The notes beneath the pieces are model-generated. The model did no database searches, had not been told where the DNA came from, and saw only the letters and a program-made list of their open reading frames with translations. Below, piece by piece: positions 1 to 16,026 of a stretch of 64,000 bases of DNA; positions within the stretch are counted from its first letter, which is position 1, and each line of letters begins with the position of its first letter. The position numbers and the translations under genes were made by a program. Location: contig NZ_CP034753.1 in the NCBI RefSeq assembly GCF_004006235.1, forward strand, positions 2,108,001 to 2,172,000, in the 5' to 3' direction. Origin of the DNA: Agromyces sp. LHK192 (GTDB lineage: Bacteria; Actinomycetota; Actinomycetes; Actinomycetales; Microbacteriaceae).

Positions 1-683
1 CGCCGGAGGAACCCGGCCACGTCGAGCACGCCCTGACCGGGGAACACGCGCGAGTGCAGGCTCCACTCGCGGACGTCGAGGTTCAGGCGCGGCGCGTCGG
101 CGAGCTGCACGTGGAACACCCTGCCGACGTCGATCCGTTCGACGGCGGCCACGTCGTTCGAGGCCGACAGCACGTGGAAGCTGTCGAGGCACAGGCCCAG
201 CGCCGGGTGGTCGACACCCGACACCAGCCGCCATGCCTCCTCATGGGTCCGCACGCGCCCCCATGGCACCGCTTCGAACGCCAGCCGGATGCCTCGTGCG
301 CCGGCGCGTTCGGCCAGCGCGTGGAGCTGTCCGGCCGCGAGGTCGTCGTCGTCGACGCCGTCGTCGCTCCTCGACGAGCAACAGACGAGCACGCGCGCAC
401 CCAGGTCGTCGAGCACGTCGAACTTCCGCTCGGCGCGGCGGAGGAACCCGGCGAGCCGTTCCGGCGGCACCGGCTCGACGTGGAACGGCTGGTAGACGTC
501 GATCGACAGACCGAGGTCGGCGGCCTCCTGGGCGAGGCGACCCGGCGACCAGGCCGACATGACGAGGTCGTACTCGAGCAGCTCCACGCCGGAGAAGCCG
601 GCGGCCGCGGCCGCGCGGACCTTGTCCTCGAGCGTGCCCGAGAGGCAGACCGTCGAGATGGACATGCCGGATGCGCGGACCAT
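1..683 (-). CDS. qsuB: 3-dehydroshikimate dehydratase (QsuB/AsbF type), 3' end beyond window
   Basis: TIM-barrel enzyme of the sugar-phosphate isomerase/AP-endonuclease-2 fold, expected to dehydrate 3-dehydroshikimate to protocatechuate in the cytoplasm. The N-terminal block (SISTVCLSGTLEDKVRAAA, about residues 8-26) and later blocks (LCLDSFHVLS, VQLADAP, SRVFPGQG) closely resemble what I recall of Corynebacterium QsuB. Probable divalent-metal ligands are E137, D167, H170 and Q193. The start at 683 has a purine-rich GGAGGGAGGG site 8 bases upstream; M7 is an alternative. The gene lies 61 bases after the ThDP gene in the same operon. The C-terminus is cut off, so a QsuB-like fusion to an HPPD-like domain cannot be judged. 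The main alternative is another sugar isomerase/epimerase, less likely because qsuD lies nearby. Confidence 0.78.
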   Translation of the reverse strand, partial: MVRASGMSISTVCLSGTLEDKVRAAAAAGFSGVELLEYDLVMSAWSPGRLAQEAADLGLSIDVYQPFHVEPVPPERLAGFLRRAERKFDVLDDLGARVLVCCSSRSDDGVDDDDLAAGQLHALAERAGARGIRLAFEAVPWGRVRTHEEAWRLVSGVDHPALGLCLDSFHVLSASNDVAAVERIDVGRVFHVQLADAPRLNLDVREWSLHSRVFPGQGVLDVAGFLR

Positions 684-744
684 GGTCGATCCCTCCCTCC
701 ATTCGCAGCAGCTGGATGCCTGTGCGCCGAACCGAGCGGCGAGC

Positions 745-2508
745 TCACTCGGTGGCGACGTGCTCGACGGTCTCCCCCGGGTTGTAGATGTCGAGGATGT
801 TCCAGTGGCCGGTGGTCGGGGTCGGCACGTTGACCATCGAGACGTCGATCACCACCGGGCGGCCGAGGGCGATCGCGCGTTCGAGTGCCGGCTTGAACTC
901 GGCGGCGGACTCGACCCTGATGCCCGTCACGCCGTACGCCTCGGCGATCGCCGCGAAGTCGGTGTACATCGGATCCGTGTCGGTGCCGAAGACCGTGCCG
1001 TACGTCGTGTCGAACGCGGCCTTCTCGAGGCCCGCGATGGTGCCGAACGCGTTGTTGTTCATGACCACCCACACGGCGGCGACCTGCTCTTCCCGCGCCG
1101 TCGAGAGCACGGCGGGGTTCTGTCCGAATCCCCCGTCGCCGACCAGCGAGACGACGACGCGGTCGGGGTGCGCCATCTTGGCGCCGACCGCCGCAGGCCC
1201 CCCGAACCCCATGGTCGCGAAGCCGCCGGGGGTCAGGAACGTGCCCGGAGTGAGGATGTCGAACTGCTGCCCGACGCCGTTCTTGTTCCAGCCGACGTCG
1301 GTCGTGATGATGGCGTCCGCCGGGAGGACCTCGCGCGTCTCGGCGAGGATCCGCTCCGGCCGCATCGGCCACGCGTCCGAGGCTTGGGCGTCGGCGTTCC
1401 CACGCTTCCGGGCTGATCGGTCTTCGGCGATCTCCGCCACGAGACCGTCACGTCGGACCCCATCCGGTGCCAGCCGACGGGCGACGCGCAGGAGCGCGGT
1501 CAGCGCGGCCTTGAGGTCGGCGATCGCACCGATCTCGAGCGGATAGTTGCGGCCGAGCTCGGCGGGATCGATGTCGACCTGCATGAGCCTGGTCTTCGGG
1601 ATGTCGAAGGTGTACTCCGGGTACCAGGAGCTCGAGTCCGCCTCCGCGAAGCGGGTTCCGAGCGCGAGGATCCAGTCGGCGGTCCGGGTCGTCCGGTTGG
1701 TGAGCGCAGTGCCCCAGAAGCCCGTCATGCCGAGCACGAGCGGGCTGTCGTCGGGCAGTGCGCCCTTGCCCATGAGGCTGTGCGCGACGGGCAGCGACAG
1801 CAGGCCGGCGAACTCCGCGAGCTCGGCTGCGGCGTCCGCGCCGACGATGCCGCCGCCGACGTAGAGCACGGGCCGTTCGGCGTCGAGGAGGTTCCGCACG
1901 ATCCGCTCGGCGACCGCCTCGTCGAGGCCGGGCTTGGCCAGCGACCGCGTGTTCGAGATCACCCGGTCGAACGGTGCGACGTCGACCTCGGCCGAGAAGA
2001 CGTCCATCGGCACGTCGACGAGCACCGGCCCGGGTCGGCCGCTCTCGGCGAGCGTGAACGCCTTGTCGAGCACCTCCGCGACGAGGTGCGGCTGGTCGAC
2101 CCGCCACGCGCGCTTCACGAACGGCCGGTAGATCTCGTACTGGGAGGCATCCGAGTGGAGGTTGACCTCCTGGTGCGGGTGCTTGCCGAAATAGTGGCTC
2201 GGGATGTCGCCCGCGATGACGACCATCGGGATGGAGTCGAGTGCCGCGTTCGCCACGCCCGTGGTCGCGTTCGTGAGCCCCGGGCCGAGGTGCGTGAGCA
2301 CGACGCCGGTGCGCCGGCCCGCCCGGGCGTAGCCGTCGGCCGCGTGGGCCGCGATCTGCTCGTGCCGCACGTTCACGAACGCGATCTGCTCGCTCTGCTC
2401 GAGCGCGGCGAGCAGTGCGATGTTGGTGTGCCCGCACAGTCCGAAGACGTGCTCGACGTCCCGTGACTCCAGATACCGGACGATCTGGTTCGACACGAGG
2501 TCCTTCAT
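745..2508 (-). CDS. ThDP-dependent 2-oxoacid decarboxylase/acetolactate-synthase-like enzyme
   Basis: A 587-residue three-domain thiamine diphosphate enzyme. The Pyr-domain catalytic glutamate is E50 in VRHEQIAAHA, and the PP-domain cofactor motif runs from GDG at 457-459 to NNN at 484-486. A Rossmann-like middle domain lies at about residues 195-340. The family decarboxylates 2-oxo acids, releasing an aldehyde or ligating it to an acceptor. The residues after the NN motif (AFGTIAGLE) differ from acetolactate synthase (usually NNQ-YLGM-like) and from sulfoacetaldehyde acetyltransferase, so neither is assigned. The start overlaps the stop of the citrate-synthase-like gene (ATGA), showing tight translational coupling. 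The neighbouring CoA-acylating dehydrogenase suggests an aldehyde product. The substrate is unknown. Confidence 0.85.
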   Translation of the reverse strand: MKDLVSNQIVRYLESRDVEHVFGLCGHTNIALLAALEQSEQIAFVNVRHEQIAAHAADGYARAGRRTGVVLTHLGPGLTNATTGVANAALDSIPMVVIAGDIPSHYFGKHPHQEVNLHSDASQYEIYRPFVKRAWRVDQPHLVAEVLDKAFTLAESGRPGPVLVDVPMDVFSAEVDVAPFDRVISNTRSLAKPGLDEAVAERIVRNLLDAERPVLYVGGGIVGADAAAELAEFAGLLSLPVAHSLMGKGALPDDSPLVLGMTGFWGTALTNRTTRTADWILALGTRFAEADSSSWYPEYTFDIPKTRLMQVDIDPAELGRNYPLEIGAIADLKAALTALLRVARRLAPDGVRRDGLVAEIAEDRSARKRGNADAQASDAWPMRPERILAETREVLPADAIITTDVGWNKNGVGQQFDILTPGTFLTPGGFATMGFGGPAAVGAKMAHPDRVVVSLVGDGGFGQNPAVLSTAREEQVAAVWVVMNNNAFGTIAGLEKAAFDTTYGTVFGTDTDPMYTDFAAIAEAYGVTGIRVESAAEFKPALERAIALGRPVVIDVSMVNVPTPTTGHWNILDIYNPGETVEHVATE

Positions 2509-3398
2509 GAACTGCTCCTTCGTTCGTCGCGTGCGCCAGGGACCGATCTGCGGGCCGGCCCCGTGTACGTGTATCCGATGGACTTCGGCATCGGCCCCTT
2601 GATCCGGCCGCCCTGTGCCATCTGCTCCACCGTGTGGGCGAGGATGCCGACCGAGCGCGCGAGGATGAACACTCCGCGCCCGAGCTCGGGCGTCAGGCCC
2701 AGTTCGCAGTAGATGACGGCCGTGACGCCGTCGACGTTCATCGGGATCCGCTTCGGCCTGCCGCGGGCGATCTCGTCCTCGACGGCCCGCCCGATCCGGG
2801 CGAAGCGGCCTTCGACGACACCGTCGGCGACCGCGTCGTCCACGAGCGACAGCAGCCGGGGGGTCCGCGGGTCGAGCGGATGCCACCGGTGCCCGAACCC
2901 CGGGATGTACCTCACGCCGGCTGCCCGGTGCCGGGCGAGCACGGTCCGCACCGCATCCTCGAGGTCGCCGGGTTCGTCGACCTCGCGGTCGATCTCGAGG
3001 TAGAGCTCCATGCACTGCTGGCCGGGGCCGCCGTGGATGTCGTCGAGCACGTTGATCGCCGAGGCCATCGCGCCGTTGACCGGCACGCCGCACGTGGTCG
3101 CCATCCGGGCGATCGCGATCGACGGGGCCTGCGGGCCGTGGTCGACGGATGCCACCAGGGCGGCCTCGAACAACGCGGCCTCGGCCGGGGCGGGCAGCTC
3201 GCCGCGCACCATCAGCCAGATCGTGTCGACGAATCCCGCGTTGCCGATGAGCTGCTCGATGGGATACCCGCGCAGCGCGATCTCACCCGGCCGCACGTCG
3301 ATGATGTCGGTCCGCCACCACCGCCGGGCCTCCTCGACGATCGCCGCGTCGTCGCCCGCGGCATCCGGACCGGGGAGGGCTTCCTGCTCGGTGGTCAC
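2505..3398 (-). CDS. citrate-synthase-like / citryl-CoA lyase-like protein
   Basis: A 297-residue citrate synthase superfamily protein. The three catalytic positions are recognisable: H122 in DIHGGPGQ, H170 in GFGHRWHPLDPR, and D223 in NVDGVTAV (corresponding to H274, H320 and D375 of pig citrate synthase). It is much shorter than housekeeping citrate synthases (about 370-430 residues) and lacks their N-terminal part, matching the length of citryl-CoA-lyase-type members. It should either condense an acyl-CoA with a 2-oxo acid or cleave a CoA thioester of a hydroxy polycarboxylate. The GTG start overlaps the dehydrogenase stop (GTGA) and the stop overlaps the ThDP start, so three enzymes are made from one coupled message. 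The true substrates cannot be read from the sequence. Confidence 0.85.
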   Translation of the reverse strand: MTTEQEALPGPDAAGDDAAIVEEARRWWRTDIIDVRPGEIALRGYPIEQLIGNAGFVDTIWLMVRGELPAPAEAALFEAALVASVDHGPQAPSIAIARMATTCGVPVNGAMASAINVLDDIHGGPGQQCMELYLEIDREVDEPGDLEDAVRTVLARHRAAGVRYIPGFGHRWHPLDPRTPRLLSLVDDAVADGVVEGRFARIGRAVEDEIARGRPKRIPMNVDGVTAVIYCELGLTPELGRGVFILARSVGILAHTVEQMAQGGRIKGPMPKSIGYTYTGPARRSVPGARDERRSSS

Positions 3399-4861
3399 GA
3401 CGTCGCGGCCCCGGTCGATGCGGCCCCGGTCGGCGCGACCTGTTCGAGGGCGGCGTCGTAGAACTCGCCGAACAGCTCCTGGTCGGTCGGGCGGTCTTCG
3501 GGGATGGTCCGCGAGACCCAGGTCGTGTTGAGGTAGTGGCGAAGCGACACGTTCTCCGAGGTGATGTTGCCGCCCCAGGTGCCGCAGCCCATCGACGAGG
3601 TCATCGGCATGCCGTTGGTGAACGCGCCGGCGTTCGCCTTCGAGTTCGGCTGGCGGACCATGATGCGCGACACCGGCATGTGGCGCGCGAAGTAGTCGAT
3701 GTGCGCGTCATCGGTCGACGCGATGCCGCACGAGTGGCCCTTGCCGCCGATGTCGTAGAGCCGCTTGGCGACCTCGACGCCGTCTTCGAAGCTGCCGTCG
3801 TAGGCATGGACCGCCATGAGCGTGGTCAGCTTCTCCTTGCAGAACTGGCGGTCCTCGGCGATGCCGTCGCCCTCGACCAGGATGAACCGGCGATCGTCGG
3901 GGATCTCGAACCCGGCCGCTCGCGCGAGCGCCTGCGGCGACACCGCGACGGTGTCGGGCAGGCGGTGCCCCTCGTCGTCCCACATCACGGACCGCAGCGC
4001 GTCGCGTTCGTCGGATGTCGCGAGGTGGCCCCCTTCGGCCACCAGCGCGTCGATCATGTCGCGGTACCGGGTCGACGGCACCAGCACGTTGCCGTCGGCC
4101 GAGCATCCCGAACCGAAGTCCGACGTCTTCGACAGCATGCAGTTGCGCGCCGTCTCCCGCAGGTCGGCGGTGTCGTCGACGAACTCCGTCGCGTTGCCGG
4201 CACCCACGCCGTATGCCGGCGTTCCCGAACTGTAGGCCGCGCGCACCAGGCCCTGTCCCCCGGTCGCGATCACCAGGTCGGCACGGCGCATGATCTCCTG
4301 CGACGCCGCGAGGCTCGGCAACGTGATGCACTGCAGGATGTCCGCCGGTGCGCCCTCCGCCTCCAGCGCCTCGCGCATGAGGCGGACGGTCTCCAGGGTC
4401 GTGTCCTTCGACCGCGGGTGCGGCGAGAACACGACGACATCGCGGGCCTTGACCGCGTAGATCGCATTGCCGGCCGGGGTGAGGTCGGGGTTCGTCGTCG
4501 GCACCACGCAGCCGATCACGCCGACGGGCTTGCCGTACTTGACGAGTCCCCGCTCGAGATCCTCCTCGATGACTCCCACCGACGGGCTGCGGAGCGCGTC
4601 ACGCAGGACGCCGCGGATCTTCATGCGCTTGTTCATCCGGCTGTCGAAGTCGCCGAGACCCGACTCCTCGATGCCCATGGCGACGAGACGTTCGAACGAG
4701 GACCGGTTCGCAACCGCCCACGCGATCGCCCGGATCAGCCGGTCGACCCGCTCCTGGTCGTAGGTCTCGATGATCGCGAGGGCGGCGCGCGCCCGGGCGA
4801 ACACCTCGTCGAGTTCGTGCTCCTGTTCGGGCGACAGGGACTTGGGTGCAGCAGCGGCCAT
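3395..4861 (-). CDS. CoA-acylating aldehyde dehydrogenase (SauS/EutE-like)
   Basis: A 488-residue aldehyde dehydrogenase of the CoA-acylating branch (AdhE N-domain, EutE, sulfoacetaldehyde dehydrogenase SauS, acylating succinate-semialdehyde dehydrogenase). The catalytic cysteine is C253 in FGSGCSADGN. The nucleotide-binding region includes GVIGCVVPTTNPDLTPAGN (about 114-132) and ATGGQGLVRAA (199-209). The conserved tail block GKGHSCGIAS (about 365-374) is present. It should convert an aldehyde plus CoA and NAD(P)+ to acyl-CoA, probably the aldehyde released by the downstream ThDP enzyme. It is the first gene of the operon and diverges from the quinoprotein gene across a 227-base control region holding two copies of the 17-bp palindrome. 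Aldehyde specificity is not deducible. Confidence 0.88.
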   Translation of the reverse strand: MAAAAPKSLSPEQEHELDEVFARARAALAIIETYDQERVDRLIRAIAWAVANRSSFERLVAMGIEESGLGDFDSRMNKRMKIRGVLRDALRSPSVGVIEEDLERGLVKYGKPVGVIGCVVPTTNPDLTPAGNAIYAVKARDVVVFSPHPRSKDTTLETVRLMREALEAEGAPADILQCITLPSLAASQEIMRRADLVIATGGQGLVRAAYSSGTPAYGVGAGNATEFVDDTADLRETARNCMLSKTSDFGSGCSADGNVLVPSTRYRDMIDALVAEGGHLATSDERDALRSVMWDDEGHRLPDTVAVSPQALARAAGFEIPDDRRFILVEGDGIAEDRQFCKEKLTTLMAVHAYDGSFEDGVEVAKRLYDIGGKGHSCGIASTDDAHIDYFARHMPVSRIMVRQPNSKANAGAFTNGMPMTSSMGCGTWGGNITSENVSLRHYLNTTWVSRTIPEDRPTDQELFGEFYDAALEQVAPTGAASTGAATS

Positions 4862-4932: not shown

Positions 4933-4949
4933 GTCCCACTGGGCAGAAA
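4933..4949. promoter_or_regulatory. putative IclR-type operator, copy a
   Basis: GTCCCACTGGGCAGAAA is a weaker match to the 17-bp palindrome GTYCCAYTSGRYGGRAC that recurs in the island. It lies 72 bases upstream of the acylating dehydrogenase start, in the divergent promoter region. Its link to an IclR protein is inferred from position and repetition. Confidence 0.45.
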
Positions 4950-4989: not shown

Positions 4990-5006
4990 GTACCACTCGG
5001 TGGGTC
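4990..5006. promoter_or_regulatory. putative IclR-type operator, copy b
   Basis: GTACCACTCGGTGGGTC is a near-palindromic 17-mer in the divergent intergenic region. It ends six bases before the proposed -35 hexamer of the quinoprotein promoter, a position typical of an activator site for the rightward gene while still able to affect the leftward operon. Confidence 0.6.
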
Positions 5007-5012
5007 GAGGCG

Positions 5013-5088: not shown

Positions 5089-7800
5089 ATGCGGAAACGA
5101 ACGAAGAGCAGGCTGGCGTCGGCGGGACTGGGGGCACTCGTCGTGTTCGCCCTCGCGGCGTCACCGGCGTACGGAATGGCACCGGCCGAACCCGTGCCGC
5201 CGGAAGGCCTGACCGGGCTCGAGCCGACCGGCGCGGACATGCCGACCGTGGGCGGCAACCTCGGCAACCAGCACTACTCGGGCCTCACGCAGATCACCAA
5301 GCGCAACGTCGACCGGCTCGGACCCGTGTGGCGGACGCACGTGTCGGCGGTCGCACCGGCGACCGACGACGTCGGCCAGCAGACGACGCCCATCGTCGTC
5401 GACGGCATCATCTACCTGGACACCCCGAGCGGCGGCGTCATCGCCGTCGACGGCAGGACGGGTGCGGCCGGCTGGAAGTGGGAGGGCGGGACGCTCGGAC
5501 TGTCCGGGACCCGCCGCGGCGTCTCGGCGGGCGACGGCAAGATCTTCACCCTCGCCGGCGGCAACAGCGTCGTCGCGCTCGACCAGGCCACCGGCGCCGA
5601 GGTCTGGTCGGCACAGCCCACCGGTCCCGCCGGCGAGGACCTCGGGCGAGTCGGGAAGGTCGCGACCGTGTACTCCGACGGCATCGTGTACGCGCACGCC
5701 GCCGACGGCGATCGCGGCGCCGTCGTCGCCCTTGACGCGACCGACGGTTCGTACCTGTGGCACTTCTTCGGCGGTCCGAAGCGCGGCGAAAAGTTCACGG
5801 GCCTCGACGGCGTGACCTTCGACGCCTCGGAGACCTGGGGACCGGTCCTCCCCGACGGGACCGACTGCTCGGAGGAGGGCGGTGCGACCTCGTGGATGCA
5901 GGGCGCGGTCGACCCCGAGCTCGGGCTGTACTACATGACCTTCGGCAACGCCCGCAGCTGCACCAGCTCGCAGGACGGGTCCCTCCGACCCGGTGACAAC
6001 CTCTTCTCGAGCACGATGGTCGCGGTCGACGCGGCGACGGGCGAGTACCGGTGGCACTACCAGTCGATCCACCACGACGTGTGGGACATGGACAACGTGC
6101 ATCCGCCCACGCTCGCCGACATCGTGGTCGACGGCCAGGAGCGCAAGGTGGTCTTCTACGGCAGCAAGTCCGGACATCAGTTCGTGCTCGACCGCACGAA
6201 CGGGGAGCCGGTACTGCCGGTCGTCGAGAAGCCGATGATCACCGACTCGCGCCAGAGCCACTCGGCGACCCAGCCGTTCCCGGCCGAGCGCCTCCTCCCC
6301 GAATGCCTGGTGTGGGAGCAGCTGGGGACCGAGAATATCCCGGGCGATCCCTGGCGCGCGGTGCCGAACTACAACGGCTACCAGCCCGACGCCGAGGGCA
6401 ACCTCGTGTTCAACCCGGACAGTTACGTCGCGGCAGACGAGCCGTTCCTGACCTACCCGGAGGGCTCGTCGGGTCACCGCGAGGGATGCATGTACGACCC
6501 GCAGTGGGACCTGCCGATCCTCTCCACGACGAGCCAGAACGGCGGTGGAGACTGGTCGAACCATTCGTACAGCCACCTGACGAACCTCGTGTACTTCCCC
6601 TACGGCACCAACCCGGTCGCGCACTGGAACGGCGCCGCGGCCAACGGGCAGCGCGCGATCGGGCAGTACCAGACGGGCGGCATCCTGGCCTACGACGCGT
6701 CGACCGGTCAGGTGAAGTGGCGGAACCACCTCGGGACGGACATGTCGCACGGCCAGGGTCCGCTGACGACCGCATCCGACCTGCTCTTCGCCGGACAGAT
6801 CGACGGCCGGCTGATGGCGATGGACTCGTCCGACGGCGACGTGCTGTGGGAGTTCCAGACCGGATCGGGTATCGCCTCCGCGCCGGTCACGTACGAGATC
6901 GACGGCGAGCAGTACCTCGCGGTGTTCGCGGCGGGTTCGACGAACCCCTACGGCGGTTCGGTGACCCAGGGCGATTCGCTGTGGGCCTTCAAGCTCGGCG
7001 GGGACTACACCACCGAGTCCGGCAGCCCGGAGGGGCCGGACCCGGCGCCGCTTTCGATCCGGCGTCCGGTGAGCGGCGCAGCCGTCGCGGGCGAGACGGT
7101 GGGCAATACCGTGCTGCTCGCGCGGTCCAGTCGCACCGCCGACACCGCGGCGGCGAGGGATGCCACGGCCCAGGCCGCGATGCAGCCCACGCACCTCCGG
7201 GTCCCCGTCGGCACGACCGTCACGTTCCTCAACCCGGGCGCCGAGACCTTCCCGAACTTCCCCAACCAGTTGGAGCACTGCGCGACGCAGTTCTTCGAGG
7301 GCGAGTTCAACGCGAGGCTGCAACCGGGCGAGAGCTACCAGCACACCTTCGACCGCGCCGGCGAGTACTTCTTCAACGACTGCACCGATCCGCGGCCGAC
7401 GGGCAAGATCGAAGTGGTCCTGACGCCGCAGGACGTGCCCGGGGCTCTGAAGTTCCCGCTGAACCGCATCGACGTTCGCGACCATGGCGGGCTGCTGGGC
7501 AAGCTGAACCAGAAGGTGACCGTGACGTTCGACCTGCCGAAGGGGTACGAGTACGACGGGAGGGCGCAACTGCTCACTCCGCTGTCCTCGAATCCCGTCG
7601 AGGCGACGAGCGTGCACACGACCGGGAAGTGGCTGAACCGGCTGACGAAGCGCACCTGGCTCGTCGTCCAGTTCGACCGGGCCGCCCTGGATCACAACGT
7701 GCCGACCGGGCAGGCCGCGCTGACCTTCGAGGTCGACGTGCTCCACGAGGGCGTGCAGAAGCGGTTGAGCTCGACCGCGACGGTGGACGTGCGCAAGTAG
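5089..7800 (+). CDS. secreted PQQ-type quinoprotein dehydrogenase with C-terminal cupredoxin-like domain
   Basis: A 903-residue exported protein. Residues 1-29 form a signal peptide (RKRTKSR, hydrophobic core, ASPAYG). An eight-bladed quinoprotein propeller spans about 45-640 and shows PQQ-dehydrogenase landmarks: RPGDNLFSST (300-309) and HHDVWDMD (328-335), plus blade motifs such as YDASTGQVKW. A plastocyanin-like domain follows (about 697-778) with H730, H752 and C765, but the usual His and Met after the Cys are missing. Residues 780-903 form a further extracellular domain. It should oxidise an alcohol or polyol outside the cell; a PQQ quinate/shikimate dehydrogenase role is attractive given the neighbours but unproven. 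The start has GAGGAG seven bases upstream. No PQQ synthesis genes are visible here. Confidence 0.82.
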   Translation: MRKRTKSRLASAGLGALVVFALAASPAYGMAPAEPVPPEGLTGLEPTGADMPTVGGNLGNQHYSGLTQITKRNVDRLGPVWRTHVSAVAPATDDVGQQTTPIVVDGIIYLDTPSGGVIAVDGRTGAAGWKWEGGTLGLSGTRRGVSAGDGKIFTLAGGNSVVALDQATGAEVWSAQPTGPAGEDLGRVGKVATVYSDGIVYAHAADGDRGAVVALDATDGSYLWHFFGGPKRGEKFTGLDGVTFDASETWGPVLPDGTDCSEEGGATSWMQGAVDPELGLYYMTFGNARSCTSSQDGSLRPGDNLFSSTMVAVDAATGEYRWHYQSIHHDVWDMDNVHPPTLADIVVDGQERKVVFYGSKSGHQFVLDRTNGEPVLPVVEKPMITDSRQSHSATQPFPAERLLPECLVWEQLGTENIPGDPWRAVPNYNGYQPDAEGNLVFNPDSYVAADEPFLTYPEGSSGHREGCMYDPQWDLPILSTTSQNGGGDWSNHSYSHLTNLVYFPYGTNPVAHWNGAAANGQRAIGQYQTGGILAYDASTGQVKWRNHLGTDMSHGQGPLTTASDLLFAGQIDGRLMAMDSSDGDVLWEFQTGSGIASAPVTYEIDGEQYLAVFAAGSTNPYGGSVTQGDSLWAFKLGGDYTTESGSPEGPDPAPLSIRRPVSGAAVAGETVGNTVLLARSSRTADTAAARDATAQAAMQPTHLRVPVGTTVTFLNPGAETFPNFPNQLEHCATQFFEGEFNARLQPGESYQHTFDRAGEYFFNDCTDPRPTGKIEVVLTPQDVPGALKFPLNRIDVRDHGGLLGKLNQKVTVTFDLPKGYEYDGRAQLLTPLSSNPVEATSVHTTGKWLNRLTKRTWLVVQFDRAALDHNVPTGQAALTFEVDVLHEGVQKRLSSTATVDVRK

Positions 7801-7820
7801 CGACCCGATCCCCCTCGCAC

Positions 7821-7860
7821 GGCAGGCGGGCGGCCCGACACGTCGGGTCGCCCGCCTGCC
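7821..7860 (+). terminator. hairpin after quinoprotein gene
   Basis: A 12-bp outer stem (GGCAGGCGGGCG with CGCCCGCCTGCC) encloses a second GCCCGAC/GTCGGGT stem, 20 bases after the stop codon. There is no U-tract, as is usual in high-GC actinobacteria. It separates the quinoprotein gene from the TRAP operon. Confidence 0.7.
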
Positions 7861-7882
7861 CTGCGTCGCGCGTGGGCATAAT

Positions 7883-7899
7883 GTCCCATTCGGCGAGAC
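7883..7899. promoter_or_regulatory. putative IclR-type operator, copy c (TRAP operon)
   Basis: GTCCCATTCGGCGAGAC matches the recurring palindrome well. It lies between the quinoprotein terminator and the leader ORF before dctQ, so it would control the TRAP transporter operon. Confidence 0.6.
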
Positions 7900-7948
7900 T
7901 CGCCTTCCGGTGATCCGCGTGACGCCGGAGAGTCTCAGGAGCAGCCGC

Positions 7949-8023
7949 ATGCGCGCGCGACGGTGCGCGGGATCAACAGAGAGGTTGGCAATGCAGCATC
8001 ACAGCACGGCGGTGACGCCATGA
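7949..8023 (+). CDS. 24-codon leader ORF coupled to dctQ
   Basis: A short ORF with ATG at 7949 preceded by AGGAG (7937-7941) at seven bases; a second in-frame ATG at 7991 is preceded by AGAGAGG (7978-7984). It would encode a 24-residue peptide rich in Arg at the start and ending MQHHSTAVTP. Its TGA (8021-8023) overlaps the dctQ ATG (8020) as ATGA. dctQ itself has only a weak ribosome site, so the leader may deliver ribosomes to it. No family is recognised. Whether the peptide has a function, or only couples translation, cannot be told. Confidence 0.45.
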   Translation: MRARRCAGSTERLAMQHHSTAVTP

Positions 8024-10004: not shown

Positions 10005-10021
10005 GTTCCATTCGACGGGAC
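10005..10021. promoter_or_regulatory. putative IclR-type operator, copy d (dctP)
   Basis: GTTCCATTCGACGGGAC is one of the best copies of the palindrome and lies in the 169-base gap between dctM and dctP. It implies that the binding-protein gene has its own regulated promoter, which would give extra expression of the receptor. Confidence 0.6.
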
Positions 10022-10139
10022 GCCGCTGTCCGCCCCACCGGAACTCGGTCAGAGTCGGCAGTGCCGGGATTTCCTGACCGGCCGTCGAATGTCACGCCAG
10101 AGGCGCACGAGGACGTGCGCACAACCAGAGGAGAGTCCC

Positions 10140-11195
10140 ATGGGCACAGCCCGCTCGACGCGCCGCGGTCGAATCGCCGCGTCGGTGCTCGCAGCATCCA
10201 CCCTCGTTCTCGCAGCCTGCTCCGGCGGCGGGACGCCGGAGGAGACCGGCGACGCCGGCGCCGCCGAGAACTCGCCGGTGACCCTCACCGTCGCGACCAG
10301 CCAGAACGAGGAGACCCCGAACTACTTCTGCGGCGTCGAGCTGCTCAAGGAACGGCTCGAGGGCGCCGACGTCGGATTCACCGTCGACCTCTACCCCGCG
10401 AGCCAACTCGGACCCGACGCGGACCGCTTCCCCCAGGTGCAGGCCGGCGACATCGACATCGACCTGCAGGGCGCCTCGGCCCTGAGCGCCACCTATGAGC
10501 CCATCGGCGTGGTCGACGCGGCGTACGCGTTCAACGACGTCGACCACGCGTTCCAGTGGATCGACGAGAGCTCCGAGGACCTCTTCACCGGCTTCCACGA
10601 GGCGACCGGCGTGAACATCGTCGACGGATGGTTCTTCGGCAACCGCACCTTCACGACGAAGGACGTCGAGGTGACGAGCCCCGACGACCTCGCCGGCGTG
10701 CCCATCCGGTTCCCGAACTCGCCGATCTTCCTCGCGAACGCGGAGGCGCTCGGTGTCACGAACCCGGTCTCGGTCGCGGTGGAGGAGGTCTACACGGCGC
10801 TGCAGCAGGGCATCGCGGTCGGCCAGGAGAACCCGATCGTCGCCACCCGCTCGTCGAGCTACGACGAAGTGCTCAACACGGCGATCCTCAACGACCACCA
10901 GGTCGGCATCCACTGGATCATCGTGAGCGACGCGACCTACGAGAAGATGAACGAGGAGCAGACCGCGCTGCTCGAGGAGACGATCCACGAGATCCGCCCC
11001 GAGAACCGCGACTGCGTCGACGAGTCGACGGAGGAGATCCTCGACGAGTACCGCGCGAACGACGCGTTCACCGTGGTCGAGCAGGACGACATCGACATGG
11101 ATGCGTTCATCAGCAAGGCCGAGGAGTTCTTCCAGGGCTACTTCACCGGTGAGAACCTGGAGGCCTACCAGGCCATCCGCGACACGGCGGAGTGA
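10140..11195 (+). CDS. dctP: TRAP transporter substrate-binding lipoprotein (DctP)
   Basis: A 351-residue solute receptor. A lipoprotein signal peptide ends in the lipobox LAAC (Cys at about residue 28), so it is tethered outside the membrane. The mature part follows the DctP pattern: strand and helix LTVATSQNEETPNYF, then QAGDIDIDLQGASALS, and the hinge region around DDLAGVPIRFPNSPIF, which contains the conserved Arg that normally holds a substrate carboxylate. Start 10140 has GAGGAGAG just upstream. The preceding region carries its own operator copy, and a strong hairpin follows the stop. It is the third gene of the TRAP set. Confidence 0.92.
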   Translation: MGTARSTRRGRIAASVLAASTLVLAACSGGGTPEETGDAGAAENSPVTLTVATSQNEETPNYFCGVELLKERLEGADVGFTVDLYPASQLGPDADRFPQVQAGDIDIDLQGASALSATYEPIGVVDAAYAFNDVDHAFQWIDESSEDLFTGFHEATGVNIVDGWFFGNRTFTTKDVEVTSPDDLAGVPIRFPNSPIFLANAEALGVTNPVSVAVEEVYTALQQGIAVGQENPIVATRSSSYDEVLNTAILNDHQVGIHWIIVSDATYEKMNEEQTALLEETIHEIRPENRDCVDESTEEILDEYRANDAFTVVEQDDIDMDAFISKAEEFFQGYFTGENLEAYQAIRDTAE

Positions 11196-11226
11196 GGCGT
11201 CACCCGCGAGCCGCGGGTGGTGAACA

Positions 11227-11257: not shown

Positions 11258-11263
11258 TTCGCG

Positions 11264-12028
11264 TCAGTCGCCCGGGTTCGCGGCGAGGCGGCGGCCCAGC
11301 GCGGACGCCGCCGCGCGGACGGCGGGCGCGACGCGCTCGGGCGCCAGCACCCCCTCGGGTCCGGCGACCGCGACGGCGGCGATCGCTGCGCCGCCCGGCG
11401 CCAGGATCGGACTGGCCGCGCAGGCACGGTCGTCGGCGCACTCGCCGAGCTCGGTCGCGACGCCGAGCCGCCGGACCTCCGCCAGCTGGCGCCGGAGCAG
11501 GTCGGGATCGCGGATGGTGCGATCGGTGCGGCCCGGCAGGCCACCGGCGAGCACCGGGTCGAGGTCATCGCGCGGCAGGTACGCCAGCATCGCCTTGCCG
11601 GTCGCGGTGGCGTGCGCCGGCAGCCGGCCGCCGATCCGGAGCAGCGGCGATCCGGTGGATTCCCCGCGCACCATCGCGATGCACACGACATCGGCGCCAT
11701 CGAGCACGCTCAGGCTCACGGAGTGCCCGGTGGCGTCGCGCAGCTCGGTCATCACCGGCATCGCGATGCGCCGCAGCATCCGCGGCCGTTCGACGGTCTG
11801 GGCGAACTCGAACAGGCGCAGGCCGAGGAAGAGCCGATCGCCGTCGCGCTCGAGGAACCGCTGCGCGACGAGGTCGGCGGCGAGCCGCGAGACCGTGGAC
11901 TTGGGCAGGTGCGCCCGGCGGGCCAGCTCCGACACCCCGAGGCCCTCGTCCTCGTCGCCGAACGCGTCGAAGACCGCCGTGATCCGGTCCAGCACGCTGA
12001 CGGTGGCCGTCCAGTCCGCGGTGCGCAT
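11264..12028 (-). CDS. IclR-family transcriptional regulator 1
   Basis: A 254-residue IclR protein. The winged helix-turn-helix is at about 10-70 (LGVSELARRAHLPKSTVSRLAADLV). The effector domain (about 85-250) shows LPAHATATGKAMLAYL and ends in the typical VAVAGP/AAASALGRRL helix. It probably binds one of the 17-bp palindromes and responds to an aromatic or cyclohexane acid. It lies three bases after iclR 2 and should be cotranscribed with it from the promoter at about 12.8 kb. Which of the four IclR proteins controls which operator cannot be read from the sequence. Confidence 0.88.
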   Translation of the reverse strand: MRTADWTATVSVLDRITAVFDAFGDEDEGLGVSELARRAHLPKSTVSRLAADLVAQRFLERDGDRLFLGLRLFEFAQTVERPRMLRRIAMPVMTELRDATGHSVSLSVLDGADVVCIAMVRGESTGSPLLRIGGRLPAHATATGKAMLAYLPRDDLDPVLAGGLPGRTDRTIRDPDLLRRQLAEVRRLGVATELGECADDRACAASPILAPGGAAIAAVAVAGPEGVLAPERVAPAVRAAASALGRRLAANPGD

Positions 12029-12031
12029 CGG

Positions 12032-12796
12032 CTACGCAGCCGCCACTCGCCGGCTGACGCTCGTGCCCGCGGCGCGCACGATCGGAGCGATCCGGTCCGG
12101 ATCCATCCCACCGCTCGGGCCGGCGATCGAGATCGCGCCGACGACGGACCTGCCGGAGCCGAACACGGGACTCGCCACCGCGAGGATCCCCGGGTAGGAG
12201 ACCTCAAGGTCGGTCGCGAGGGTCGACGACCGCACCTGGGCGAGCTCGTCGCGGAAGTGCCTCGCGTCGTCGTCGACGAGCGAGGCGGTGACGCGGTCGA
12301 CGACCCGCTGGTCGGCGCAGAAGGCGAGATACGCCTTGCCGCTGGCGGTCGTCAGTGCGGGCGAGTGCATGCCGGCGCTCGTCGGCAGCATCGGCAGCCT
12401 GCCCGGCAGCGCGGCGATCGAGACCATGTCGGTGCCCTGCTGGACCCAGAGTCCCACCCGCTCGCCCGTCGCCTCGCGAAGTCGCCGGATCACCGGTGCT
12501 GCCGCGGCGAGGAGTCGGCGCGGTCGGCTCGCCCTGGCGCCCAGTTCGAACAGCCGCAGGCCGAGCTCGACGCCGGCGCCGCCTCCGACCCGTGCGAGGT
12601 ACCGCTGGTCGGCCAGGTCGGCGACGAGTCGGGACGTCGTGGACTTCGGCAGCCCGACGCGTGCGGCGATGTCGGTGATCGTGGCCGGGCCGTCGCTCTC
12701 GCGGACCGCCTCGAGGATCGCGATGATGCGGTCGAGCACCGAGACCGGCGACGCCGTCGGATCGGGGGCGGTGTTCCATTCGGTGGGACTCGTCAT
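12032..12796 (-). CDS. IclR-family transcriptional regulator 2
   Basis: A 254-residue IclR regulator with HTH TITDIAARVGLPKSTTSRLVADLA (about 31-54) and an IclR effector domain (MHSPALTTASGKAYLAF block near 125-141). Start 12796 is selected because AAGGGG lies nine bases upstream. The best-matching copy of the palindrome lies within codons 3-8 of this gene, which points to autoregulation by a roadblock or start-site mechanism. It diverges from the qsuD-like gene and is followed closely by iclR 1. Confidence 0.88.
   Translation of the reverse strand: MTSPTEWNTAPDPTASPVSVLDRIIAILEAVRESDGPATITDIAARVGLPKSTTSRLVADLADQRYLARVGGGAGVELGLRLFELGARASRPRRLLAAAAPVIRRLREATGERVGLWVQQGTDMVSIAALPGRLPMLPTSAGMHSPALTTASGKAYLAFCADQRVVDRVTASLVDDDARHFRDELAQVRSSTLATDLEVSYPGILAVASPVFGSGRSVVGAISIAGPSGGMDPDRIAPIVRAAGTSVSRRVAAA
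12773..12789. promoter_or_regulatory. putative IclR-type operator, copy e (within iclR 2 start)
   Basis: GTTCCATTCGGTGGGAC has the cleanest half-sites, GTTCCA and TGGGAC. It overlaps the first codons of iclR 2, encoding SPTEW on the other strand, and is 143 bases upstream of qsuD. It could control both directions. Confidence 0.6.
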
Positions 12797-12845
12797 CGAG
12801 CGACCCCTTCCAGCGGCTTGAATCATCGTCGATCGCGCTTTCGAT

Positions 12846-12865
12846 TACGAACGTACTAGTTCGTA
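12846..12865. promoter_or_regulatory. putative TetR operator in qsuD-tetR promoter
   Basis: An inverted repeat TACGAAC-N6-GTTCGTA (20 bp) sits 67 bases before the qsuD start and overlaps a possible -10 element TACACT (12864-12869). Its symmetry and length fit a TetR-family operator. The nearest candidate binder is the TetR protein encoded as the second gene of this operon. Confidence 0.55.
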
Positions 12866-12931
12866 CACTGGCGTGCAATGCTTGTCGAGGACTCACGTGG
12901 CCCCACAGAGCGGTGGGCGGGAAGGGCATCC

Positions 12932-13834
12932 ATGCGCACATCGCCTCGCCCCCGATACCTCGTCGGGCTCGTCGGCGACGGCATCAGCGCGTCGCTGACG
13001 CCGGCGATGCACGAGGTCGAGGCGGCCGCGCTCGGCCTCGACTACGAGTACCGGGTCCACGACCTGATCGAACTCGGACGTCCTCCGAGCGACATCGGCG
13101 CCATCCTCCAGGAGGCTCGAGCGAGCGGGTACGCGGCGATGAACATCACCCACCCGTGCAAGCAGCTCGTGGTCGACCTCGTCGACGTCCTCGAGCCGGA
13201 CGCCGAGCGCCTGGGTGCCGTCAACCTCGTCGTCTTCGAACCCGATCGGACCGTCGGACACAACACGGACTGGATGGGGTTCCGCGACGGGCTCGAAACG
13301 GGCCTCCCCGGAGCGTCCCTCCGACGCGTGGTGCAGATCGGATGCGGCGGCGCGGGCGCCGCGACCGCGTACGCCCTGCTCGCGGGCGGCACCGCACACC
13401 TCGATCTCCACGACCAGGACGGCGATCGCGCAGAACGCCTCATGACGCGGATGCGCACGCTCTACCCGTCGCACGAGATCGCCGCGATCGACCTCGCCGA
13501 GCTCCCCGACTCGATCGCACGCGCGAGCGGAGTGGTGCACGCCACGCCGATGGGGATGAGCCACCACCCCGGCACCGCGTTCGACCTCGACCGCCTCGCG
13601 GCGAACGCGTGGGTCGCCGACGTCGTGTACCGACCGCTCGAGACCGAACTCCTCGGCCGCGCGACCGCGCTCGGGCATCCGGTGCTCGACGGTGGACGGA
13701 TGGCGGTCGGCCAGGCATGCGCTAGTCTCCGGATCATCACGGGCGTCGCACCCGACCGCGACCGGATGGAGCGGCACTTCCGCGCGCTGATCCGCGCCGA
13801 AGGGCGACCCGACGCCGGAGGGAGCGCGGAGTGA
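12932..13834 (+). CDS. qsuD: quinate/shikimate dehydrogenase (QsuD-like, AroE family)
   Basis: A 300-residue NAD(P)-dependent dehydrogenase of the shikimate dehydrogenase family, interconverting quinate/3-dehydroquinate or shikimate/3-dehydroshikimate. Substrate-site residues are present: S-TPAMH near 23-27, catalytic Lys in NITHPCKQ and Asp in GHNTDWMGF. The nucleotide fold carries GCGGAGAA (about 134-141). The blocks GVVHATPMGM, HPGTAFD and LDGGRMAVGQA resemble Corynebacterium QsuD more than biosynthetic AroE, as far as I can recall. Start 12932 follows GGGAAGGGC. Its stop overlaps the tetR GTG start. Together with the dehydratase at the left edge it supports quinate/shikimate catabolism; a biosynthetic aroE role is less likely in this setting. 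Confidence 0.82.
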   Translation: MRTSPRPRYLVGLVGDGISASLTPAMHEVEAAALGLDYEYRVHDLIELGRPPSDIGAILQEARASGYAAMNITHPCKQLVVDLVDVLEPDAERLGAVNLVVFEPDRTVGHNTDWMGFRDGLETGLPGASLRRVVQIGCGGAGAATAYALLAGGTAHLDLHDQDGDRAERLMTRMRTLYPSHEIAAIDLAELPDSIARASGVVHATPMGMSHHPGTAFDLDRLAANAWVADVVYRPLETELLGRATALGHPVLDGGRMAVGQACASLRIITGVAPDRDRMERHFRALIRAEGRPDAGGSAE

Positions 13835-14487
13835 CCGATCGCATCGACGACGTGCACGCGGGCACCACCGAGCGGGCGAGCCGGACGCAGCGCGACATCC
13901 TCGAGGTCGCGATCGCCGAGTTCGCGGCGAACGGCTACGCCGGCGCCAGGGTGGACGAGATCGCCGCGCGCACCCGAACCACGAAGCGCATGATCTACTA
14001 CTACTTCGGCTCGAAGGAAGGCCTCTACCTCGCGGTCCTCGAGCGCGCCTACGCGCAGATCCGCCTGGTCGAACGCGGCATCCGCATCGACTCGCTCAGC
14101 CCGACCGAGGCGCTCAGGAGACTCGCGGAGGCCACCTACGTGCACCACACGACGCATCCGGAGTTCATCCAGCTCGTGAGCATCGAGAACATCCACCGGG
14201 CCGAGCACCTGCGCCGCTCCGAGACCGTGATGCGCGAGAACGTCACCGCGATCACGCTCCTCGAAGAGGTCATCGACCGCGGCGTCGAGGAGGGCGCCTT
14301 CCGCGACGACGTCGACGCGCTCGACGTGCACATGGTGATCAGCGCCTACGCGTGCTTCCACGTCGCGAACCGCCACACCTTCCAGGCCATCTTCGACCGC
14401 GACATGCTCGCTCCCGAACTGCAGGACTCGCATCGCCGCCTCATCGGCGACATGGTCGTCGCCACGATGACCGGCTCGCGCGGGTAG
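13831..14487 (+). CDS. TetR-family regulator cotranscribed with qsuD
   Basis: A 218-residue TetR regulator. The HTH lies at about 28-60 (VDEIAARTRTTKRMIYYYFGSKEGLYLAV), followed by an all-helical ligand domain with a C-terminal region around AYACFHVANRHTFQAIF as in TetR_C-type aromatic-acid regulators. The GTG start overlaps the qsuD stop by four bases (GTGA), so the two are translationally coupled. The inverted repeat at 12846-12865 in their common promoter is a natural site for autorepression. The ligand may be the QsuD substrate or product; that is inference. Confidence 0.85.
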   Translation: MTDRIDDVHAGTTERASRTQRDILEVAIAEFAANGYAGARVDEIAARTRTTKRMIYYYFGSKEGLYLAVLERAYAQIRLVERGIRIDSLSPTEALRRLAEATYVHHTTHPEFIQLVSIENIHRAEHLRRSETVMRENVTAITLLEEVIDRGVEEGAFRDDVDALDVHMVISAYACFHVANRHTFQAIFDRDMLAPELQDSHRRLIGDMVVATMTGSRG

Positions 14488-14510
14488 CGACGGCGGCCGC
14501 ACCCGACGAC

Positions 14511-15281
14511 TCAGGTGTCGCCTGAGGGCGCCTCCTCGAGCCGCCGTGTCAAGGCCCCCGCAGCCGCATGAACGACCGGCGCGAACAGCTCCGCGTCGAA
14601 CACCGTCGACGTGTTCGACACCGACAGCGCGCCCACCACGTCGCCGGAGCGGTCGAACAGCCCGTGCGCGACGCACGAGACGCCGGCGAGGTACTCCCCC
14701 GCGTCCAGGGCCGGAGCGCCGCGGCCGATCCGGTCGAGCTCGACCCGCAACGCCGTCGGATCGGTGAGCGTCCGCTCCGTCCACGCCGGCAGCGGAGCCG
14801 AGAGGATCTCCTCGACGAACGCGGCCCGCGAATGCGCGAGCACCGCCTTGCCGAGCGCCGTGGCGTGCATCGGGAGGAAGGCACCGGTGTGCGCGATCAC
14901 CGGTGCGGGCGCCTGGCCGCGCATCACCGCGATGCAGACCAGCTCGCGTTCGTCGCGGATCGCGACGTTGACGGTTCCGCCCGTGGTGTTGCGCAGGTTC
15001 GCCATGATCGGCAGCGCCGCACTCCGAAGCCGTCGCGGCTGCTCGGCGAGGTGGCCGAGCTCGAACAACCGCAGGCCGAGATGCAGCAGCCTGCCGTCCC
15101 GCTCGAGGTAGTTCCTGCGGACGAGGATCGCGACCAGCCGCGACACCGTCGACTTCGGCAGGCCCGCGCGCAGCGCGAGCTCCGAGATCCCCAGTCCGCG
15201 GTCGTCGGACTCGAAGGCCTCGAGCAGTGCCGTGAGGCGGTCGAGCACGCCGATCGCGTCGTCGCCGTCTGCCTCGGCCAC
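14511..15281 (-). CDS. IclR-family transcriptional regulator 3
   Basis: A 256-residue IclR protein with HTH LGISELALRAGLPKSTVSRL (about 30-49) and an effector domain with LPMHATALGKAVLAHS (about 133-148). The GTG start at 15281 lies four bases after the iclR 4 stop, so the two form an operon. It resembles iclR 1 in its HTH and AEQPRRLR/VERPRMLR linker, while iclR 4 resembles iclR 2, suggesting that an ancestral pair was duplicated on either side of qsuD-tetR. Confidence 0.87.
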   Translation of the reverse strand: MAEADGDDAIGVLDRLTALLEAFESDDRGLGISELALRAGLPKSTVSRLVAILVRRNYLERDGRLLHLGLRLFELGHLAEQPRRLRSAALPIMANLRNTTGGTVNVAIRDERELVCIAVMRGQAPAPVIAHTGAFLPMHATALGKAVLAHSRAAFVEEILSAPLPAWTERTLTDPTALRVELDRIGRGAPALDAGEYLAGVSCVAHGLFDRSGDVVGALSVSNTSTVFDAELFAPVVHAAAGALTRRLEEAPSGDT

Positions 15282-15285
15282 CGGG

Positions 15286-16026
15286 TCAGGCCACCCGGAG
15301 CGCCAGCCGGTGCGTGAGCGCGAGTGCCGCGTGGCGGACCAGGGGCATCATCCGATCGGCGTCCATGTCGGTCTCCGGTCCGGCGACCGAGATCGCCGCC
15401 ACCGGCTGGCGCTGCGCGGAGAGCACCGGGCTCGCGATCGCCATCACCCCGCGGAAGGTCTCGCACCGATCGACCGCGAGACCTTCGCCGCGGACGCGCA
15501 CGAACTCCCGCTCGAGGCTTCGCCGGCGGTCGGGGTCGAGCCCGCCCAGCACGCGCCCGACGACCACCTCGTCCGACGTGAACGCGAGCACCGCCTTGCC
15601 GAGCGCGGTCGTCGCCGACGGGACCCGCACGCCCGCCCGGGACGGGCACGGCCTGAGCCGGCCCTGCACCGAGACGACCGAGAGCATGTCGCGGCCGTCC
15701 TGCACGGCGACGTTCAGGTGCTCGCCGGTCGCGTGGTACAGCTCGGCGAGCACCGGCAGGGCCGCGATGCCGAGACGACGGGGGGTGCTCGCGCGCGACC
15801 CCAGCTCGAACAGCCGCAGGCCGATCACCACGCCGTCGGCGCTCCGGGCGAGGTAGCGCTGTCGGACGAGGTCGCCGACGATCCGGGAGACCGTGGACTT
15901 CGGGATCCCCGTCGTCCGCGCGAGCTCGCTGACCGTGGTCGAGCCGTGCGCCTCGCGTGCGGCGTCGAGGACGGCGAGGATCCGGTCGAGGACCGAGACC
16001 GGCTCGGCAGTGAGAGCGGACCGCAT
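15286..16026 (-). CDS. IclR-family transcriptional regulator 4
   Basis: A 246-residue IclR regulator: HTH TTVSELARTTGIPKSTVSRI (about 29-48) and effector domain with VPSATTALGKAVLAF (about 125-139). Start 16026 (MRSALTAEPVSVLDRI) is chosen by alignment with the other three; the frame is open far upstream, but the DNA there contains an operator copy and a terminator. It is the first gene of the iclR 4-iclR 3 pair. An operator copy lies 62 bases upstream. Confidence 0.86.
   Translation of the reverse strand: MRSALTAEPVSVLDRILAVLDAAREAHGSTTVSELARTTGIPKSTVSRIVGDLVRQRYLARSADGVVIGLRLFELGSRASTPRRLGIAALPVLAELYHATGEHLNVAVQDGRDMLSVVSVQGRLRPCPSRAGVRVPSATTALGKAVLAFTSDEVVVGRVLGGLDPDRRRSLEREFVRVRGEGLAVDRCETFRGVMAIASPVLSAQRQPVAAISVAGPETDMDADRMMPLVRHAALALTHRLALRVA

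Follow-up and report, generated by a model that had tools for sequence, protein, structure and literature searches.

Organization of the locus

The window analysed here is the 64,000-nucleotide stretch from position 2108001 to 2172000 of the complete genome of Agromyces sp. LHK192 (4,088,319 bases, one contig). Near its left end lie three leftwards-transcribed genes (the trio) encoding an acylating, CoA-dependent aldehyde dehydrogenase (ALDH), a homologue of citryl-CoA lyase (CCL) and a thiamine diphosphate (ThDP)-dependent enzyme, in the company of quinate- and shikimate-related genes (Table 1), and it is a putative role of the trio in quinate breakdown that is considered here. The genes overlap by 4 bp at both junctions: the GTG start of CCL at 3398 lies within GTGA and the ATG start of the ThDP gene at 2508 within ATGA. 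Both overlaps had been described in an earlier annotation of this DNA (the original prediction) and their coordinates hold on re-checking; they suggest that the three products are made together. With each gene taken to begin at the first in-frame start close to the stop, ALDH and CCL overlap by 4 bp in all seven actinobacterial relatives (L022–L028), and CCL and the ThDP gene do so in six, L026 having TAATG instead.

A gap of 61 bp separates the ThDP gene from the next gene, where a 3-dehydroshikimate dehydratase had been predicted. A QuiC-like domain is indeed present, but it is part of an 897-amino-acid protein whose gene leaves the window and which contains three domains: the QuiC-like TIM barrel, an HPPD-like domain, and a second TIM barrel of the AP_endonuc_2 type that the original prediction had overlooked. 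Relatives from Agromyces and Microbacterium share the fusion (L009:13991–16684), and part of it is seen in Occultella where a locus ends. Directly 3′ of it and on the same strand is a gene for an aldo-keto-reductase-type oxidoreductase (L009:12983–13915) that scores below all cut-offs (best, 84 against 280 bits).

Table 1. Genes and operator-like sites at the Agromyces sp. LHK192 locus (window coordinates; ThDP, thiamine diphosphate; PQQ, pyrroloquinoline quinone; TRAP, tripartite ATP-independent periplasmic).
Feature	Coordinates	Strand	Evidence
Acylating (CoA-dependent) aldehyde dehydrogenase (ALDH); proposed homocitrate-semialdehyde dehydrogenase	3395–4861	-	NCBIfam and PDB matches
Citryl-CoA-lyase homologue (CCL); proposed homocitryl-CoA lyase	2505–3398	-	NF004864, PDB 6hxp, invariant residues
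ThDP-dependent enzyme; proposed ring-opening 1,2-dione hydrolase	745–2508	-	Family matches, His27 alignment
897-amino-acid fusion (QuiC-type dehydratase, HPPD-like, second TIM barrel); first 227 codons in window	1–683, beyond window to L009:13991	-	Domain matches
PQQ-type beta-propeller dehydrogenase, divergent from trio	5089–7800	+	PF01011, 274 bits
TRAP transporter small permease DctQ (start possibly 8020)	7963–8682	+	PF04290
TRAP transporter large permease DctM	8687–9970	+	TIGR00786, 349 against cut-off 268
TRAP solute-binding protein DctP (exact start uncertain)	10110–11195	+	PF03480
IclR-family regulator, first	11264–12028	-
IclR-family regulator, second	12032–12796	-
Shikimate/quinate dehydrogenase SDH (start possibly 12932)	12878–13834	+	NF009201
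TetR-family regulator, 4-bp overlap with SDH	13831–14487	+
IclR-family regulator, third	14511–15281	-
IclR-family regulator, fourth	15286–16026	-
Operator-like site CCAGTGGGAC, in block conserved in four Agromyces/Microbacterium relatives	4933–4942	-
Operator-like site CGAGTGGTAC	4990–4999	-
Operator-like site 5′ of DctQ	7883–7892	-
Operator-like site 5′ of DctP	10005–10014	-
Operator-like site upstream of SDH, within start of IclR gene	12773–12782	-
Operator-like site upstream of fourth IclR gene	16088–16097	-

Conservation of the trio and its association with quinate genes

Scanning of named genomes with a CCL alignment yields at least 533 relatives, and the best 80 of these at least 533 were kept for locus comparison. 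An orthologue of the ThDP enzyme (at least 45% identity over half of the query) is present at 21 of the 80 loci, here called ThDP-positive, and the other 59 are ThDP-negative. A second TIM barrel accompanies 17 of the 21 ThDP-positive loci and none of the 59 ThDP-negative ones; the corresponding numbers are 12 and none for an acylating ALDH, 13 and none for a QuiC domain, five and none for a type I dehydroquinase, and nine and one for a shikimate/quinate dehydrogenase (SDH), whereas a CoA-transferase is found at nine of the 21 and 52 of the 59. At least one quinate-type gene (SDH, dehydroquinase, QuiC domain or PQQ protein) occurs at 18 ThDP-positive loci and at a single ThDP-negative one, that of Propionivibrio limicola (L036), although the quinate-gene queries were drawn from the window and from ThDP-positive or P. 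limicola loci, which favours matches in ThDP-positive loci. The original prediction placed the trio beside quinate/shikimate genes and implied its conservation as a unit; both points are borne out, the conservation extending well beyond the genus.

Seven of the 21 ThDP-positive loci are from close Actinomycetota, and two others (L032 and L033) carry identical CCLs; collapsing the ThDP-positive loci by hand leaves 12 lineages, eight with the second TIM barrel and nine with quinate genes, the 59 ThDP-negative loci being left uncollapsed. On a tree of the CCLs the ThDP-positive label costs four changes, compared with 21 when labels are shuffled. The distribution of the module is patchy, with the ThDP enzyme (E ≤ 1e-150) in five of 60 genomes of the genus and three of 396 in a sample of the phylum (the LHK192 genome being included in both), and is consistent with horizontal spread. 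Outside the 80-locus set, a plasmid of Azoarcus sp. KH32C encodes an IclR regulator, an HPPD-like protein, a QuiC-type TIM barrel, a CoA-transferase, CCL, the ThDP enzyme, SDH and aroD; the last two genes are directly 3′ of the ThDP gene, and a second TIM barrel is encoded ~14 kb away on the same plasmid.

Loci L032 and L033, from a Thiobacillus metagenome-assembled genome (MAG) and Thauera phenylacetica, also have near-identical surroundings, reflecting either a binning error or recent transfer. In Povalibacter a carboxylesterase gene is located directly 3′ of the ThDP gene (L052:12608–14269), and its product could free quinate from chlorogenate-type esters.

A ThDP type with 50–54% identity (type B; L020, L021, L153, L154 and L158) lies beside a different aldehyde dehydrogenase, a CoA-transferase, CCL and a PQQ dehydrogenase. 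SDH is nearby at three of these five loci and a QuiC domain at two, and all three that were gene-scanned (L153, L154 and L158) have a branched-chain-type ABC transporter. A further ThDP paralogue (52%) is found in T. phenylacetica (L115; G063:C47) together with an aldehyde dehydrogenase and a second-kind TIM barrel, with no CCL within its 18 kb. Three type-B loci have no TIM barrel nearby and two type-B genomes have no second-kind TIM barrel at all, as would be expected if the trio degrades another plant cyclic or 2-oxo acid, with the quinate genes nearby only through clustering of plant-acid genes; the PQQ protein and the TRAP transporter may likewise serve another compound. However, the quinate linkage recurs across unrelated phyla and on the Azoarcus plasmid, and an operator-like motif (below) is common to eight relatives, so that a different substrate seems rather unlikely.

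An operator-like motif and the flanking genes

Operator sequences common to the trio, the PQQ dehydrogenase, the TRAP transporter and SDH had been proposed, and the idea gains support from relatives once a motif is defined. The pattern CSARTGGDAC occurs 10 times in the window where 1.3 occurrences are expected, but sites of this kind, together with the stretch between the ALDH and PQQ genes of L022, L023, L025 and L026, were the source of the pattern, and this count is therefore circular. Eight relatives (L022–L028 and L159) have only two to five copies per locus, and, judged by eye, these are mostly between the same genes: between ALDH and the PQQ gene, between the PQQ gene and DctQ, before DctP, and before SDH. 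This recurrence supports the motif as a putative link among the four units. When the intergenic regions were compared by 16-mers in an unguided way, nothing significant emerged (best p 0.07).

The SDH passes the shikimate dehydrogenase model NF009201 (363 bits against a cut-off of 235) and fails the quinate/shikimate dehydrogenase model NF010631 (252 against 515). Four paralogous IclR regulator genes are located within 5 kb (11264–16026) with the SDH and TetR genes interspersed, and a transposase-like open reading frame (16617–17930; HTH_38, with a weak integrase core match) adjoins the cluster.

Properties of the encoded enzymes

The CCL passes the 'citryl-CoA lyase' model NF004864 (432.9 against a cut-off of 261), and its PDB match is 6hxp. 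Residues H122, H170, D223, R171, R178, R241, R248 and R265 are present in all 83 CCLs, and we take these to be the His-His-Asp and arginine residues of the citrate-synthase fold. At five positions (C129, M130, G240, I245 and I274) most of the 53 ThDP-negative CCLs from outside Bradyrhizobium differ from the ThDP-associated ones. Since tripartite tricarboxylate transporter genes (TctA/B/C type) are near 33 of the 59 ThDP-negative CCLs (and one of the 21 ThDP-positive; one representative was typed per cluster) and 52 of the 59 have a CoA-transferase, the family plausibly handles citrate-like thioesters. The trio CCL most likely cleaves a thioester resembling homocitryl-CoA.

The Bradyrhizobium CCLs (L031, L034, L035 and L055) have the signature residues of the ThDP-associated CCLs. 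A ThDP orthologue was not found in the L031 genome, where the top-scoring match has 34% identity, and the CCL gene there is surrounded by genes for a CoA-transferase, a DASS/citrate-type transporter and an FGGY kinase; these CCL carriers are possibly homocitrate users.

For the ALDH the best NCBIfam model is SauS (NF047625; 446.4 bits, under the cut-off of 600) and the best PDB match is a CoA-dependent succinate-semialdehyde dehydrogenase (8cei, 303 bits). At the thresholds used, twenty of the 21 ThDP-positive loci have an acylating ALDH or a CoA-transferase (11 with ALDH only, eight with CoA-transferase only, one with both), and the remaining one, with a contig end nearby, has neither. Where the acylating ALDH is absent (nine loci), a family III CoA-transferase is present at eight, seven of which also have an ordinary aldehyde dehydrogenase; at L029 and L052 the CoA-transferase gene overlaps that of CCL by 4 bp. 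Such a substitution is understandable if both kinds of locus pass through the CoA thioester of the oxidised aldehyde, with acylating ALDH on the one hand and ordinary aldehyde dehydrogenase plus CoA-transferase on the other as two ways to one thioester.

The ThDP enzyme reaches none of the cut-offs of the 25 best among 54 matched families. It fails as acetolactate synthase (TIGR00118; 409.2 against 538.35) and as sulfoacetaldehyde acetyltransferase (NF005713, PRK07525; 286.2 against 620), and by score it is not IolD, whose model TIGR04377 (cut-off 715) is outside the 25 best of 54, the weakest of those shown having 286 bits. SauS as best ALDH model and the distant Xsc-likeness of the ThDP enzyme could be taken to indicate a known sulfonate, oxalate or 2-hydroxyacyl-CoA pathway, but both scores are under curated cut-offs (446 against 600 and 286 against 620) and the context is one of quinate genes, which makes this very improbable. 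In this respect the original prediction of an unfamiliar module is supported, ALDH and the ThDP enzyme scoring below the cut-offs shown for the described sulfonate and ThDP families; the CCL passes NF004864.

His27 of the ThDP enzyme aligns with H28 of cyclohexane-1,2-dione hydrolase (Cdh; L150, PDB 2pgn) and H40 of IolD (L151; 838 against a cut-off of 715). The alignment has 16 rows (the window enzyme twice, its Aromatoleum diolicum orthologue, Cdh, IolD, ten other ThDP enzymes, and one row unaligned at this point), and the ten other enzymes have G, A, S, D or N at the position; 13 of the rows, namely all but Cdh, IolD and one of the two copies of the window enzyme, come from two genomes. In a separate ThDP alignment the histidine is invariant in 13 of 13 rows, including P. 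limicola, and a GH motif is present in all 27 locus copies, the window included (L017/L022 and L019/L025 being the same genomes and L032/L033 having identical CCLs).

The second TIM barrel is distant from QuiC by score, with 35 for the barrel alone and 460.8 for the whole fusion against a cut-off of 1200 for the dehydroshikimate dehydratase model NF042435. Excerpts of a QuiC1 study list metal-site residues and a histidine (E134, D165, Q191, E239 and H168; PMC7442255), and the barrel keeps them as E133, D163, H or Q at 189, and H166, with E238 matched by eye. Structure prediction (mean pLDDT 92.8) gives it a fold closest to those of Lmo2234, IolI and QuiC1.

Propionivibrio limicola

P. limicola GolChi1, the source of the sole ThDP-negative locus with quinate genes, is reportedly described, in the title of its description, as a fermentative bacterium specialised in hydroaromatic compounds. 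In L036 the order is a DctP-type solute receptor, a glyoxalase-like protein, a MaoC-like protein and a family III CoA-transferase (the last three at 6298–8431), SDH, and a type II dehydroquinase, followed by CCL. A whole-genome search reveals a ThDP orthologue (67%) at another locus (L114), flanked on one side by an acylating ALDH (55%) and on the other by the second TIM barrel, which is cut by a contig end, and the P. limicola CCL groups among the ThDP-associated CCLs in the tree. The intradiol dioxygenase family PF00775 and LigA (PF07746) were not found in this genome, which has one PF02900 match. Three genes for 2-oxoglutarate dehydrogenase components adjoin the L036 CCL on the opposite strand; they would suit 2-oxoglutarate as a product, but only weakly, and an ordinary tricarboxylic acid cycle cluster is just as likely because a citrate synthase gene is in the same stretch. 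Methylmalonyl-CoA mutase is also encoded in the genome.

A proposed oxygen-independent route for quinate

From gene content, conservation, co-occurrence and aligned active-site residues, it appears somewhat more probable than not that the trio and the second TIM barrel constitute a catabolic pathway for quinate (and for shikimate, via dehydroquinase) that forms no aromatic ring. Its first step would be the standard oxidation of quinate to 3-dehydroquinate. The second TIM barrel, which is related to dehydroshikimate dehydratase and IolI, would then remove the C5 hydroxyl of 3-dehydroquinate, yielding 1-hydroxy-3,4-dioxocyclohexane-1-carboxylate; dehydroshikimate is converted to protocatechuate by the same kind of elimination. 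The ThDP enzyme would hydrolyse the C3–C4 bond of this dione, as IolD and Cdh do with theirs, to give homocitrate semialdehyde, OHC-CH2-C(OH)(COOH)-CH2-CH2-COOH, in which C3 is the aldehyde. Homocitryl-CoA would be formed by the acylating ALDH, or elsewhere by an ordinary aldehyde dehydrogenase and a family III CoA-transferase, and this beta-hydroxy-acyl-CoA would be split by CCL into acetyl-CoA and 2-oxoglutarate. As drawn, every step is balanced, all seven carbons are retained and oxygen is not needed; the degrees of reduction are 28 for quinate, 26 for dehydroquinate, the dione and the semialdehyde, and 24 for homocitrate or for acetate plus 2-oxoglutarate. Quinate and citrate both have a C(OH)(COOH) group flanked by two CH2 groups, and the four enzyme families match the four reactions proposed for them. 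The fuller claim, that the oxygen-independent pathway leading from quinate and shikimate through a cyclic 1,2-dione and homocitryl-CoA to acetyl-CoA and 2-oxoglutarate is widespread but patchy, comprises a new 3-dehydroquinate 5-dehydratase, ThDP ring-opening hydrolase and homocitryl-CoA lyase, and may explain the growth of fermenters such as P. limicola on hydroaromatic compounds, is only just favoured.

The original prediction had the ThDP enzyme decarboxylate a 2-oxo acid, with acyl-CoA formation and a condensation or release to follow. This is not favoured, given that the ThDP histidine is that of two ring-cleaving 1,2-dione hydrolases, that the second TIM barrel was not considered, and that CCL most likely acts on a homocitryl-CoA-like thioester. 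The strongest version of the 2-oxo-acid idea is an aromatic branch, in which protocatechuate or gallate would be converted by a 4,5-dioxygenase to 4-carboxy-4-hydroxy-2-oxoadipate, decarboxylated by the ThDP enzyme to citrate semialdehyde, oxidised by ALDH to citryl-CoA, and cleaved by CCL to acetyl-CoA and oxaloacetate. Such a branch agrees with the family name of CCL (NF004864) and with the QuiC domain beside the trio. However, LigA is over its cut-off in only two of 14 genomes searched and was found in neither the LHK192 nor the P. limicola genome; each of these has one unassigned PF02900 homologue, the LHK192 one being far under every protocatechuate/gallate model listed. Moreover, P. limicola is reportedly titled as fermentative, and the branch accounts neither for the second TIM barrel nor for the histidine of the IolD/Cdh type; it is accordingly considered quite unlikely. 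For the protocatechuate/beta-ketoadipate route, PF00775 was not found in the complete LHK192 genome and is over cut-off in nine of the 14 genomes. An aromatic route of some other kind may still operate in LHK192. Aromatic and proposed routes may coexist in many hosts, and the QuiC domain retained in the fusion fits this.

A second variant keeps a non-aromatic quinate route but has the TIM barrel as an IolI-like isomerase and the ThDP enzyme as an acyloin lyase producing a dialdehyde from 3-dehydroquinate or from its keto isomer by ring opening, with a hydroxylated 2-oxo acid and acetyl-CoA as products. The dialdehyde would require two oxidations, and at the thresholds used no more than one of the two aldehyde dehydrogenase types is seen at 20 of the 21 ThDP-positive loci; the histidine common to two hydrolases also points to water as co-substrate. 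We judge this variant unlikely.

Several observations weigh against the dione and homocitryl-CoA route, in addition to the choice of queries noted above. The ThDP enzyme is only 27% identical to Cdh, and other Cdh active-site residues differ in it (H31 is I30, H76 is L74 and N484 is I491), H31 and H76 presumably being active-site residues of Cdh. In the second TIM barrel, A208 aligns with S206 of QuiC, and the barrel was not found in six of the 13 ThDP-bearing genomes or records searched whole. These six comprise three MAGs, a plasmid record that was searched by itself, and two genomes whose ThDP enzyme is of the 50–54% type; either QuiC or another, unseen enzyme dehydrates in these cases, or the second step is wrong. 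The QuiC-type dehydratase domain is retained beside the trio, and aromatisation may run in parallel with the proposed route; the LHK192 genome also has the one class III extradiol dioxygenase homologue (PF02900), and VOC-type ring-cleaving dioxygenases were not searched for. The PQQ protein is outside the quinate/glucose family (TIGR03074, 216.9 against 832.65; TIGR03075, 278 against 480), and PqqE over its cut-off was not found in the genome (best, 55 against 381 bits), candidate readings being a scavenged cofactor or a function other than with PQQ. P. limicola, which reportedly degrades quinate by a non-aromatic route, has both an acylating ALDH and a divergent CoA-transferase (28–39% to the others), and its MaoC- and glyoxalase-like genes have no use in the scheme.

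Relationship to known systems

In its logic the proposed route is closest to myo-inositol catabolism (IolE/IolI, IolD and IolA), in which a TIM barrel acts on a cyclic ketone, a ThDP hydrolase opens a cyclic 1,2-dione, and a CoA-acylating aldehyde dehydrogenase follows, and H40 of IolD is at the position of His27. It differs in having another substrate, no aldolase or kinase, a citryl-CoA-lyase-type final cleavage, and a ThDP enzyme that is not IolD by score. Cdh belongs to the ThDP family and has the aligned His28, but differs in identity and other residues as described, and the two enzymes occur together in A. diolicum 22Lin, whose Cdh is L150 and whose orthologue of the window enzyme (68%) is L029. 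A Cdh variant, H28A/N484A, is described in excerpts of a recent report as coupling pyruvate with ketones (PMC12247030). The QuiC/QsuB route to protocatechuate likewise oxidises quinate and employs dehydroquinase together with a dehydratase from the same TIM-barrel family, but it aromatises and needs oxygen for ring cleavage, whereas the proposed route would do neither. Citryl-CoA lyases with a family III CoA-transferase, often beside TctABC, belong to the same CCL family (NF004864) and have the same catalytic residues as the trio CCL, but their loci have no ThDP enzyme and, with one exception in 59, no quinate genes.

Among the literature matches listed, none connects quinate with homocitryl-CoA, with citryl-CoA lyase or with ring opening by a ThDP enzyme, which is weak evidence because subscription journals and preprints are mostly outside their coverage. 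The enzymes belong to known superfamilies and follow the logic of inositol degradation, and as a quinate pathway the route appears to be undescribed. Of the suggestion that the trio is part of an unnamed route for a product of plant cyclic acids, the quinate/shikimate setting and the lack of a description found stand, and the chemistry originally proposed does not.

Quinate and chlorogenate esters are abundant plant carbon. Excerpts on Acinetobacter baylyi describe quinate use there as proceeding via protocatechuate and the beta-ketoadipate pathway (PMC4213383). If the proposed route is correct, it would add three enzyme activities, provide functions for genes annotated only as 'citryl-CoA lyase', 'thiamine pyrophosphate-binding protein' and 'sugar phosphate isomerase/epimerase', and explain how fermenting bacteria grow on hydroaromatic acids without oxygen.

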